Of a DNA stretch of 23,190 nt, positions 6,325-10,849 are shown piece after piece (position 1 is the first letter of the stretch; the number at the start of each line of letters is the position of its first letter). Source of the DNA: a virus. Below the pieces are notes generated by a model. It was given only the letters and a program-made list of their open reading frames with translations. It ran no database searches and was not told where the DNA came from. The position numbers were made by a program, and so were the translations under genes. The stretch is from the IMG/VR virus record IMGVR_UViG_3300010300_000115, positions 1 through 23,190 of that record. One strand, given 5' to 3'.

Positions 6325-9300
6325 CTAATAAATAACGTTACTTAGACTGTGTTGTTTAGATATCTCAATAGCATCATCAACCATATCTCTCATTACATCA
6401 ATATGCGATATTATAAGAATAAAATCAAACTCCGTCTTTAAGTAATCAAATAACATTGACATCGAACTAATATTGCTAGAGTCTAAATTACCAAATCCTT
6501 CATCAATAGCTAAGAAAGTAGGTCTAGGTAAATTAGAAATATTAATTAAAGCAACACGAATAGCTAATGATGATATGAATTTCTCCATACCTGAAGTCAT
6601 TTCTAATGACCAAGTACTCTGACCATACTTAATATAGGTTAAGATATTTTTACCGTCAACATCAAATTCAAGTTCAAAATCTACTACTTGTGATAAAATA
6701 TTATTAACTTCTTCTTGTATGTATGGCAAGGTATCAGAAATAATCTCATAAGGAATACCATCACGCTTGATAGCATCAAGGTAGTACTCATACGCTTTTA
6801 ATTTGATCTCTAAACTATGAGCTTTTTTAATATGATTATTAATATTCTTTATATCAGTTTTATAAACCTTAATATCACTATAGCACAATTGTCGTTTATC
6901 ATCAACTAGTGATAGTTCTGTTTTTAGAGTATCTTGCTCATTCTCTCGAACTCTAATCTCACTATTAATCTCTTTATTCTGTTCTATAGCTTGTAAGTTT
7001 TTATGATAGCGTTCAATAAGCTTATCTAATTCCTTATTACGTGTAATAATTTTATCGCGAACTTCTTTAGCTTGATAGTAAGCAATCCTACCAGCATCTC
7101 GCTCTCTCTGTATTTGAGAAATTATACTACGTTGATCAGTTAGATCGTTAATGTCACTTTCGATACCATTAAAACTATCTAATTGTGTTTTATAAGATTT
7201 AATAGATTCTACTAATTCTCTAGCTACCACTTTATCATTTTCTAAGCTTGTTTTAGTTTTATGAGCTGTTTTTACAAAATCATTATTTTTACAGAAAGTA
7301 CAGTTAGGATCAAATTGACCTATTGCATCAAGTTTTTCTTGCTTATGAAGAACATCTTTCTTCAACATTTCTTTGGTTTGATTTAAGGATTGTAGTTCTG
7401 ATATGCATGCTTTATAATCTACATACTTACCTTCAACATTACTTTGCTCGTAACGTGAAACTTTTTCTTCTGCAGCCGCTACCAGCTCTTTATTATGAAT
7501 TGCAATTTTTTCATCAGACTTTAATCGCTCATCTATATCTTTAATTCTAGATTCGTTAGATTGTTTCTCTCGCTCTAACTCTTCCAAGTTATCAAGCGGT
7601 AGCTTTTTATGTAAAGACTTTGTTAGACTAAGTATTTCTTTACTCTTCTCTTTAATGTTAGATTCGACATCCTTTTTTTCAGCTTGATATTGCTCATAAC
7701 GTATTTCACACTTCTCAAGCTTATCTTCTTTATCAATTAACTCTTGAGAATAATCAGTATTACCAAAATCCTTAAGTAAAGCTTGCACATCCCGAATCTC
7801 TTCATTTGCTAATGCGTATAACTGTTCAAATACTGTTATATCTAGAAATTGAGAGAGTAAATCCTTTTTCTCAAACTGTGACTTATCTATAAATCCAGTG
7901 TTATTATTTTGAACTGATAGTGCAGTAAGAATAAAGTCATCATACTCACCTAAATATCCTTGAATGTTCTTATCTGTATCTCTTCTTTGTTCACCATTCA
8001 GAGAAACCTTTTCACCTTCTTCATCGATATACCAAAAATCTACATCTACACGTACTTTACCTTTTTGCCATCCTTTCAATATTCTCTTCGCTCGTCTCTC
8101 TATAAAGTATGTAACACCATCAATCTCTAACTCTAATTTACAATGAAAAGTATTTTTAGTGTTATTCATTATATCAACAGCTGATTTACCTCTACTACAT
8201 CTATCAAAAATACAAAATGCTAATGAATCTAGTATAGCTGATTTACCTGCATGATTAGGTGCAAATAAACCTATAACATCTTTAGCTTTAGAAAAGTTAA
8301 TTGTATTTCCATCACCGTAACTAAACATATTAGAGAATTCAAAGTTTTTCATCCTCCATGTTACATTTCTAGTTATATCTTCATTTAACAAGGAATCATT
8401 CAACGTCTTATTAATACTTTTTATTTGTCGCATTAAGTTATCATCAACATCGTGATTCTTCTCTATATAATCTTTTAATAATTTATTTTGATAATTAACA
8501 TCTCTAACATCACGAGTTAAAGATCTAGATGTACTAGCAATACCTTTTATCTTATCCTGCTTTATAGTAATAATATCATTAGCTCTACATTTCTTCTTTA
8601 CCTCTTTAATTATACTCTTTAGCTCAGCTTCTGTTGTGTTAGTAGTTCTAATGCGTAAGCGAGGCTGCTTAGGTATATCATCTATATTAGGTAAAACACC
8701 GTCTTTAACATCTATAGTATAGAAGCCATATTTGTTTGGTATATCTACGTATTTTGGCTTTCTAGATGGTATATCCCATACAGCGTAACCATGGTGTTTG
8801 AATGCTTCACCGAAATTTTGCTGAATAAGAGATCCAGGGTAGCATATTGTCTTAGCTTTATCAACATATTGTCGTTTATGAATATCACCTAATAGTGATA
8901 AATCATAGCCATCAAATAAGTTTGATGTATATTCTTCACCTGTTACTTCATACCCTATATCAGTTTTAGAAGATTGGACAGGTCCATGGAAAAGTGCAAT
9001 CTTTGTATCAGCTTCAAAAGATTCGGCTTTAATAAAGTCAGATGCTGGATCAAAGATACTAAATACAGTAAAGTGTGTATCAGCAATTTTATAGACGCCT
9101 GAATCTTTCAGATAGTGTAGCTTTGGATGATTTAAGTTTTTTATAATAGGTGATAGAGCATCTAACCTACTAGTATTATTTAGGTTAGTATCATGATTAC
9201 CAGTAATAACAATAGTATGTCGCCTGTCAGCTAAGTTCTTTAAAAACTCAGAAGTCAGAGAAATCAATTCAGGTGATATATCAGTTTTGTTGTGGACTAC

Positions 9301-9474
9301 ATCACCAGCTACATATACAATAGAGTTTTCAGGTAGATCATCTACCCCTTTATATAACTCTTTAAATATTTGTTTATACTCAGTATGTCTTTGATAGTTA
9401 CGAATGTGTATATCTGCGACATGTAATACTTTATTTAGCTTATCAAACCCGACATTAATATTTTTTATTTTCAA
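6325..9474 (-). CDS. Fused Mre11-Rad50 / SbcD-SbcC recombination exonuclease (T4 gp47 + gp46 equivalents)
   Basis: A 1049-residue fusion of two normally separate subunits. Residues 1-~300 are an Mre11/SbcD calcineurin-like phosphoesterase with the full metal-ligand set: D21-I-H23, G57-D-V-V-H61, G92-N-H-D95, H163 and G196-D-I-H199. Residues ~300-372 are a charged helical linker where the Rad50-binding region of gp47 would lie. From about 375 a Rad50/SbcC ATPase follows: P-loop APNHAGKS (405-412), long coiled coil with zinc-hook C725-T-F-C728, signature-like TSGMEK (960-965), Walker B with D991-E992, and an IISHID H-loop. T4 gp46/gp47 processes DNA ends for recombination-dependent replication; the same is inferred here. 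The start is TTG, overlapping the primase TGA stop as TTGA. No ATG or GTG occurs between the upstream in-frame stop and the DIH motif, so TTG is the only reasonable start. The P-loop lacks its first Gly, and the signature has SGM where SGG is usual. Confidence 0.93.
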   Translation of the reverse strand: MKIKNINVGFDKLNKVLHVADIHIRNYQRHTEYKQIFKELYKGVDDLPENSIVYVAGDVVHNKTDISPELISLTSEFLKNLADRRHTIVITGNHDTNLNNTSRLDALSPIIKNLNHPKLHYLKDSGVYKIADTHFTVFSIFDPASDFIKAESFEADTKIALFHGPVQSSKTDIGYEVTGEEYTSNLFDGYDLSLLGDIHKRQYVDKAKTICYPGSLIQQNFGEAFKHHGYAVWDIPSRKPKYVDIPNKYGFYTIDVKDGVLPNIDDIPKQPRLRIRTTNTTEAELKSIIKEVKKKCRANDIITIKQDKIKGIASTSRSLTRDVRDVNYQNKLLKDYIEKNHDVDDNLMRQIKSINKTLNDSLLNEDITRNVTWRMKNFEFSNMFSYGDGNTINFSKAKDVIGLFAPNHAGKSAILDSLAFCIFDRCSRGKSAVDIMNNTKNTFHCKLELEIDGVTYFIERRAKRILKGWQKGKVRVDVDFWYIDEEGEKVSLNGEQRRDTDKNIQGYLGEYDDFILTALSVQNNNTGFIDKSQFEKKDLLSQFLDITVFEQLYALANEEIRDVQALLKDFGNTDYSQELIDKEDKLEKCEIRYEQYQAEKKDVESNIKEKSKEILSLTKSLHKKLPLDNLEELEREKQSNESRIKDIDERLKSDEKIAIHNKELVAAAEEKVSRYEQSNVEGKYVDYKACISELQSLNQTKEMLKKDVLHKQEKLDAIGQFDPNCTFCKNNDFVKTAHKTKTSLENDKVVARELVESIKSYKTQLDSFNGIESDINDLTDQRSIISQIQRERDAGRIAYYQAKEVRDKIITRNKELDKLIERYHKNLQAIEQNKEINSEIRVRENEQDTLKTELSLVDDKRQLCYSDIKVYKTDIKNINNHIKKAHSLEIKLKAYEYYLDAIKRDGIPYEIISDTLPYIQEEVNNILSQVVDFELEFDVDGKNILTYIKYGQSTWSLEMTSGMEKFISSLAIRVALINISNLPRPTFLAIDEGFGNLDSSNISSMSMLFDYLKTEFDFILIISHIDVMRDMVDDAIEISKQHSLSNVIY
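8350..8358 (-). promoter_or_regulatory. Internal TGGAGG abutting ATG at the gp47/gp46 junction
   Basis: On the minus strand TGGAGG directly touches an in-frame ATG (Met375) exactly where a free-standing gp46 would begin (MKNFEFSNMFSYG). The zero-base spacing is too short for normal initiation. It could be a remnant of a once separate gp46 start or a weak internal start. It may also be chance, since TGG-AGG also encodes Trp-Arg. Confidence 0.3.
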
Positions 9475-10382
9475 ATTATCATTCCCATCTGCTTCATCAT
9501 TAAACTACTCCCGGTTAAAGGACTAGTTGTATTGTACATTTTAGTAAACTCTGAATAGCCTAGTTCACTAGGGTCACTACTACCTAATTCTATTAAATGT
9601 ACTTCTACTCCATTATTTACTAGATACTCACATATATCTAACGCTTTCGATCTAGCATCTGTATCTAATGCAATGTAAACTGTTCTAACGTTATTATTAA
9701 TAATAGCTGTTTTTAATTTATTTAATATTATTTTACCAAAGAGAGGGATAGCGTTACGTTTAGCAGCTATAGCATCAAATGCACCTTCTACAATAGTTAT
9801 TGGTTCATTCCAATTAATAAGTAATTCAAATCCAATTATATCTTTACTTACTTTAGGATTTTTATGTTTAAACGATGCATCTTTATAATAAGATCTACCA
9901 GTGAAAAAATTTAACATACCGTTATCATCATAACTAGGAATAATAATCATACCACTATATTCACCAGTCTCACAATAACCAATATTATATCTAACTATAT
10001 CTTCTCGTGTTATACCTCGACTCTTTAAGTAATGTAGAGCATTTCTAAATTCTGGATTATTTTTATTACCATTAAGTATTAGTTGAAACTCTGGTGGTAG
10101 CATAACTTTTTGTTCTATACTACTTTGCTTAACAGGTACGTAATTGCCTACTTCAGTATTTAAATCGTTAATTTGTGTTTGAGATGCATTAGCTCGTTTA
10201 AATAGCGTAAAGAGTTTTCGCCCTTTAGCATTACAAACCCAGCAATGCCAGAATTGTGTAGATAGATCGACTTCAAGTTTATGTTTGTAGTGATTGCAAC
10301 AAGGACACTTGAATGATACATTATTACCAGATGTTTTTTTAGACCGGCCAAGCACAGTCTCTAGTATACTTAATAAACCCAT
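9471..10382 (-). CDS. DNA primase (T4 gp61-like; zinc ribbon plus TOPRIM)
   Basis: A 303-residue protein that should make RNA primers for lagging-strand synthesis alongside a replicative helicase not present in this window. A zinc-binding ribbon at the N-terminus has C26-P-C-C29 and C47-W-V-C50. A primase-core-like segment follows at ~140-170 (MIIIPSYDDNGMLNFFTGRS). The TOPRIM domain has its conserved Glu in TIVEGAFDAIAA (E199) and its acidic pair in YIALDTDA (D240, D242), then DPSELG near 270. The size is close to that of T4 gp61. The ATG has AAGG only one base away, a poor ribosome-site spacing, so initiation may be weak or coupled to upstream translation. The TGA stop overlaps the TTG start of the recombination nuclease, linking the two replication genes. 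Confidence 0.9.
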   Translation of the reverse strand: MGLLSILETVLGRSKKTSGNNVSFKCPCCNHYKHKLEVDLSTQFWHCWVCNAKGRKLFTLFKRANASQTQINDLNTEVGNYVPVKQSSIEQKVMLPPEFQLILNGNKNNPEFRNALHYLKSRGITREDIVRYNIGYCETGEYSGMIIIPSYDDNGMLNFFTGRSYYKDASFKHKNPKVSKDIIGFELLINWNEPITIVEGAFDAIAAKRNAIPLFGKIILNKLKTAIINNNVRTVYIALDTDARSKALDICEYLVNNGVEVHLIELGSSDPSELGYSEFTKMYNTTSPLTGSSLMMKQMGMII

Positions 10383-10408: not shown

Positions 10409-10849
10409 CTACACAACTATTTTATTTATTTTTTTCGCTACACTCTCGTCAAATCTAACTTTAGCAAAGCGTCTTGGACCAATACAATCATTATAGAAAT
10501 CATCACTAGCTGATACATGAAATCTATGATGAATATTTTCTTCTAAGTAGTTAACTTGTCCTTTAGTTTCACCCATTATAAGTATTCTGAATTCGAAATT
10601 CTTTTTACCTAACTTTTTAATATCTTGTTGGAGTGATTTAGAAGAACCTGTGTACGTAGCCCAATCAGATTCTTTGCGAATAACTTTACGTCGCTTTTGT
10701 CCTTTCACTTTTACACGACGAGTTGTACCGAAATACTTCCGACCAATATACTTCTTACCTGTTTTTTTATTTTTTATTAAGTAAACAAAACCAAAAACTT
10801 TATCAGGTACATTTTCTAATATTTTACCTTTATATAACCAATGACTCAT
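10409..10849 (-). CDS. GIY-YIG family endonuclease-like protein
   Basis: A 146-residue protein with a GIY-YIG nuclease core. The first motif is G20-F-V-Y23 and the second is Y34-I-G36-R37. A basic stretch (~44-60) precedes W63-ATYTGSSKSL, and LEENIH around 102-107 probably supplies the metal-binding Glu. The family contains homing endonucleases and phage DNA-degradation or repair nucleases. From memory, T4-like marine phages carry a closely similar protein as a regular genome component, so a selfish homing role is not required. No DNA-binding domain of the usual homing type is visible after the core. No Shine-Dalgarno sequence precedes the ATG, which lies four bases after the previous stop, so translation probably depends on the upstream gene. 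Substrate and role are unknown. Confidence 0.8.
   Translation of the reverse strand: MSHWLYKGKILENVPDKVFGFVYLIKNKKTGKKYIGRKYFGTTRRVKVKGQKRRKVIRKESDWATYTGSSKSLQQDIKKLGKKNFEFRILIMGETKGQVNYLEENIHHRFHVSASDDFYNDCIGPRRFAKVRFDESVAKKINKIVV

Follow-up and report, generated by a model that had tools for sequence, protein, structure and literature searches.

Introduction

Fusions of Mre11 and Rad50 into a single protein have been described by Yoshida, Claverie and Ogata in 2011 (PMC3175470) in Mimivirus (R555), a Bacillus phage, plasmids, bacteria and eukaryotes, together with hundreds of marine homologues, many of which lie beside phage genes including primases. A viral origin of the fusion was proposed in the same study, and the R555 motifs were shown to carry GDxxH for GDxxD and an Asp for His in GHIH (PMC3175470). 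In phage T4 the homologous subunits, gp47 and gp46, are encoded by two genes with two small genes between them, and by their annotation recombination and the breakdown of host DNA depend on them. Bacterial SbcD and SbcC, homologous to the two halves of the fusion and sharing their gene order, are likewise two genes, and the coiled coil of E. coli SbcC is longer than that of the protein described here. Searches of an open-access library turned up neither later work on phage fusions nor any on the re-split form presented below, which is not proof of absence.

Both subunits in a single reading frame

The window, i.e. the whole stretch of 23,190 nucleotides analysed, corresponds to a metagenomic 23-kb viral contig from IMG/VR (IMGVR_UViG_3300010300_000115). 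The earlier note had claimed that nuclease and ATPase subunits sit in one uninterrupted frame without giving its strand; this frame is indeed found, on the minus strand (6325-9474), with no internal stop over 1049 residues, the plus strand being stop-rich (Table 1).

Table 1. Coordinates of the fusion gene, of the regions of its product and of the adjoining primase gene within the window.
Feature	Position	Strand	Evidence and remarks
Mre11-Rad50 (SbcD-SbcC, gp47-gp46) fusion gene	6325..9474	minus	1049 aa; TTG start 9474, TAG stop 6325-6327; profiles, 80/80 best relatives fused
Mre11-type phosphodiesterase domain, residues 1-228	8791..9474	minus	metal motifs DIH, GDVVH, GNHD, H163, GDIH; profiles, AF2 secondary structure
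Mre11 capping domain, about residues 229-305	8560..8790	minus	strands and helix at 229-305 in the AF2 model; T. maritima Mre11 matched by profile
Mre11 helix-loop-helix (Rad50-docking), residues 326-360	8395..8499	minus	AF2 helices 326-340, 345-360; profile aligned to T. maritima Mre11 203-375
Linker joining both former subunits, residues 361-371 (~11)	8362..8394	minus	coil, block pLDDT 69; break point of split phages
Rad50 N-lobe, residues 372-545	7840..8361	minus	P-loop FAPNHAGKS at 8239-8265; profiles, AF2
Coiled coil, residues 546-902	6769..7839	minus	zinc-hook CTFC at 7291-7302; AF2 helices
Rad50 C-lobe, residues 903-1049	6328..6768	minus	signature TSGMEK 6580-6597; Walker B and D-loop 6478-6516; H-loop His 6403-6405
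DNA primase (CHC2/Toprim type)	9471..10382	minus	stop overlaps fusion start by 4 bases; upstream of fusion in 80/80 best relatives

The two halves match the SbcD/gp47 and SbcC/gp46 profiles separately, with residues 14-350 aligned to PHROG_100 (SbcD, E=3e-30) and residues 278-1048 to PHROG_77 (SbcC, E=5e-46), while Pfam Metallophos is matched by residues 15-200 (E=2e-10). Pfam and NCBIfam are otherwise consistent with both halves, mostly under the family cut-offs. Both PHROG profiles are about 970-990 positions long, and this length suggests that fused members were among the sequences from which they were built. Furthermore, a profile of 50 relatives aligned over query residues 188-359 with the T. 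maritima Mre11 structure, as far as the helix-loop-helix at the C-terminus of the latter, and also matched the solved E. coli SbcC and archaeal Rad50.

The AF2 model of the fusion has a mean pLDDT of 82 and a pTM of 0.46, a low value at which the relative arrangement of the domains is unreliable and is not taken as evidence. Along the chain, the model displays the phosphodiesterase, the cap, the helix-loop-helix, the linker coil at 361-371, the Rad50 head and the coiled coil. Many of its PDB matches are chains of Mre11, SbcC or Rad50, and further SMC proteins occur among them. At the head of the viral structure matches are giant-virus proteins that are as large as a fusion and carry the annotation DNA repair exonuclease, the top one in the structure library being Tupanvirus A0A6N1NVE8, 25% identical over 1314 alignment columns.

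The five metal motifs, the P-loop, the zinc hook, the signature and the Walker B named in the earlier note were all located. In the Mre11 half, the phosphodiesterase motifs I to V are DIH (D21, H23), GDVVH (57-61), GNHD (92-95), H163 and GDIH (196-199), two of them with a substitution since motif II is of the GDxxH form and motif V reads GDIH, not GHIH. The Rad50 half shows a Walker A or P-loop (FAPNHAGKS, 404-412), a CxxC hook on the coiled coil (C725-x-x-C728), an ABC signature (TSGMEK, 960-965), a Walker B (FLAIDEGFG, with NLD) and an H-loop (SH, 1023-1024), the Walker A and the signature being variant. Most of the catalytic and ATPase motif positions, not all, are invariant in 50 relatives; these include, among others, G57-D58, G92-N93-H94, H163 and G196-D197-I198-H199 in the Mre11 half and N407, G410-K411-S412, C725, C728, S961-G962-M963-E964, D991-E992 and H1024 in the Rad50 half.

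The ATPase variants run throughout the clade: FAxNxxGKS (8239-8265) is without the first glycine (A405 in the window), and SGMEK (6580-6597) stands for SGGE. Together with GDxxH and GDIH, these departures are common to the window's clade, and those in the P-loop, the signature and motif V are probably tolerated because they are conserved across it. GDIH was rejected as a hallmark of the fused forms, given that T5-type D12 has GDLH too.

Comparison with R555

The window protein fits the R555-type description, and fusions of this kind have been known since 2011. An N-terminal Mre11/SbcD part and a C-terminal Rad50/SbcC part are in one frame; motif II is GDxxH (GDVVH) and the first His of motif V is replaced by Asp (GDIH), as in the published description; and the helix-loop-helix (326-360) is followed by a linker (361-371) within the 9-12 residue range. 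The domain order in one chain, both metal-motif departures and the marine homologues beside phage primases are shared with R555. In contrast, R555, which was compared by its published description, has 1351 residues against 1049 in the window, whose coiled coil is shorter and whose carrier is a tailed phage.

The earlier note saw rightly a single polypeptide where two genes are found elsewhere, but it overestimated the novelty of this arrangement, which was published in 2011 (PMC3175470) and is common in aquatic viruses. Its idea that the fusion forces a new geometry is doubtful, since in the complex of T. maritima the C-terminus of Mre11 and the N-terminus of Rad50 are already ~ 28 angstrom apart and 9-12 residues can bridge this gap (PMC3175470), the linker being here of ~ 11 residues. 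What the locus adds to the kind described in 2011 is a well-sampled phage clade.

Relatives and gene neighbourhood

Queried with an alignment of five sequences, IMG/VR gave at least 468 relatives, of which the best 80, with 41-85% identity, were analysed. All of these 80, surveyed for the fused or split state as the earlier note had proposed, are fused in a single frame over whatever length their contigs cover, and 74 of them have complete fused genes of 1035-1073 aa (median 1050). A close annotated case is WWT39521.1 of Microcystis phage Mel-JY01, which is fused, 39% identical end to end and kept in the order GIY-YIG, primase, fusion; it differs by a small ORF between primase and fusion and is annotated only as "AAA domain containing protein". 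As the window is a single metagenomic contig and both genes are adjacent or nearly so in split phages, an assembly error that erased a stop between two neighbouring genes could be thought of. This explanation has next to no probability: no stop or frameshift, which the earlier note had looked to between residues 300 and 375, is present in the window sequence, and the junction is equally open in the 80 best relatives and in the annotated Mel-JY01 genome.

The primase lies upstream of the fusion in 80/80 best relatives, and the 4-base overlap, formed in the window by the TTG start at 9474 and the primase stop codon (TTGA), is seen in 36 of them. Upstream of the primase, the window encodes a SegE-type GIY-YIG endonuclease (10409-10849), and a SegE-like gene precedes the primase in 24/80 best relatives. 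The PHROG_447 name of this protein is "NAD synthetase" while Pfam gives SegE GIY-YIG (E=2e-30); the former is probably a wrong name. Beyond this gene are large genes, most of which lack a profile match and presumably encode structural proteins; baseplate-wedge proteins follow up to the right edge of the window, and downstream of the fusion large proteins are found, one of which has an endosialidase-type chaperone at its end. The carrier of the fusion is a marine, tailed phage. In the window and the 80 relatives, the primase and Mre11-Rad50 are embedded in a tail/baseplate gene block, an odd site for replication genes.

A second, more distant fused group is formed by the 735-kb phage LR756501 and L176-L185, with proteins of 1202-1250 aa. 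LR756501.1 (L158, L006) has, besides the fused Mre11-Rad50, a separate T4-like gp46-type gene. The fused form is not unusual in aquatic viruses, and much of the signal seen earlier in marine metagenomes is probably due to the window's clade.

Among cellular sequences, fused matches in bacterial or archaeal bins (L088-L094) sit on short contigs of 3.8-20 kb, which are probably phage-derived. These short pieces aside, the halves are in separate frames on bacterial genome contigs wherever both were seen. Candidate cellular fusions in Candidatus Daviesbacteria were discarded, the tblastn spans over both halves being two adjacent frames.

Phylogeny of fused and split forms

For the trees, the fused chains were taken unaltered and the split pairs were joined. 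E. coli SbcCD was placed inside the phages in the first tree on a very long branch and was dropped; a second tree was built without it and without the Moorella phage row, both being long branches. All fused forms make up one clade (100/100), separate from the T4, cyanophage, T5-type and SPO1-type split pairs, so that one fusion event is enough within this sample, whereas in a wider sample of life the fusions are polyphyletic (Yoshida et al. 2011, PMC3175470). The general statement of the earlier note that T4, bacteria and most phages have two genes holds for T4, for phages of the T5 and SPO1 types and for those bacteria that were examined. Conversely, the window protein is not made of two separate subunits and does not belong to the T4-like clade; with T4 gp47/gp46 it shares homologous halves and an expected role in recombination-dependent replication, while the T4 pair falls outside the fused clade.

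Proposed function and mechanism

The single-chain Mre11-Rad50 complex is very likely the phage's equivalent of gp46/gp47. This reading is supported by the one frame, the domain order, the conserved motifs, the presence of no more than one strong copy in those long relatives that were searched and the co-location with the primase. Indeed, 8/8 long viral contigs of the window's clade have one SbcC/SbcD-type locus each, and in the complete 190-kb Mel-JY01 genome there is one SbcD match and the SbcC matches besides the fusion are two marginal ones. Since no other strong gene of the SbcC/SbcD type accompanies it in these long relatives, the fusion appears to stand in for gp46/gp47 in its phages. 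Another task for the fused protein, for example in host takeover or counter-defence, with recombination left to a normal gp46/gp47 pair, could be suggested by the 735-kb phage LR756501, where a T4-like gp46 accompanies the fused protein, and by the fact that most cells with a fusion also have the normal pair (PMC3175470). For the window's clade this is very improbable, given that a second SbcC/SbcD-type gene of comparable strength was not found in the complete Mel-JY01 genome and the 8 long contigs.

As a gp46/gp47 equivalent, the protein would most likely act as the T4 pair does, by ATP-driven DNA-end resection for recombination-dependent replication. Dimer formation, nuclease and ATPase activity and the replication role are inferred from known Mre11-Rad50 enzymes. 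Two chains would pair via their Rad50 heads (with ATP), their Mre11 cores and their zinc hooks; ATP binding would close the heads over a DNA end, and hydrolysis would open them and let the Mre11 active site resect this end. The 3' single strand produced would serve recombination-dependent replication, and resection may also aid host DNA degradation. The docking site of the helix-loop-helix would be the base of the coiled coil of Rad50 and the linker would continue to the Rad50 N-terminus, the fusion therefore tying together parts that would already touch. A405 in the P-loop, SGMEK for SGGE and GDIH for GHIH count against activity, a GDxH-type change being also present in T5-type D12. At about 120 kDa, a natural single-chain Mre11-Rad50 would be convenient for structural work.

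A chain probably divided again in jumbo phages

In a set of jumbo phages (L167-L174, L175, and L096 with L162), the Mre11-Rad50 chain is cut inside the Mre11 capping domain, unlike the ancestral break. The nuclease core is encoded by a frame of 274-295 aa whose end corresponds to about query residue 267, and a partner frame of about 790-806 aa, with the remaining capping domain, the docking helices and Rad50, starts near residue 268, the two proteins tiling the fused one end to end. Both parts are kilobases apart and often on opposite strands: they are within 10 kb in L167-L174, about 12 kb apart in the Bacteroidales contig (L096 and L162), which is similar to the rumen jumbo phages, and far apart on one 363-kb contig in L175. 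On every viral contig that was searched, a single match to the nuclease and a single strong one to Rad50 were obtained. The rumen source of these phages is probable, being taken from the RUG12352 bin name and not contig by contig.

The re-split forms group together in a clade (100/100) that adjoins the fused LR756501 group (99/95), within the fused clade. We consider it likely that a single event in a large phage clade gave rise to the fusion, and that in the rumen jumbo phages the chain was later cut at another place, about residue 268, within the Mre11 capping domain. This order is the economical one because the reverse would require Rad50 to take over half of the capping domain together with the docking helices all at once. 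If so, the nuclease would depend for its attachment on the two halves of the split capping domain coming together again and not on its own docking helices, and these relatives would offer a natural experiment on which nuclease-ATPase contacts are needed. The re-split form is more novel than the fusion itself.

The site of this break also bears on whether the fused chain could be cleaved after translation to give an ordinary two-subunit complex. The linker 361-371, of lower model confidence, could be exposed to such a cut, but no protease or self-cleavage motif was noticed in the course of a non-systematic inspection and the rumen phages have divided the gene elsewhere, not at the linker; cleavage is very improbable.

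Another interruption is present in the 484-kb phage LR756508.1 (L005:4983-9208), where a 305-aa ORF interrupts the fused gene directly after the conserved GDIHKRQ metal motif. A group I intron was considered and set aside, as Rfam gave 0 matches at the gathering threshold and 0 intron matches at a relaxed threshold. The 305-aa ORF itself resembles a homing endonuclease.
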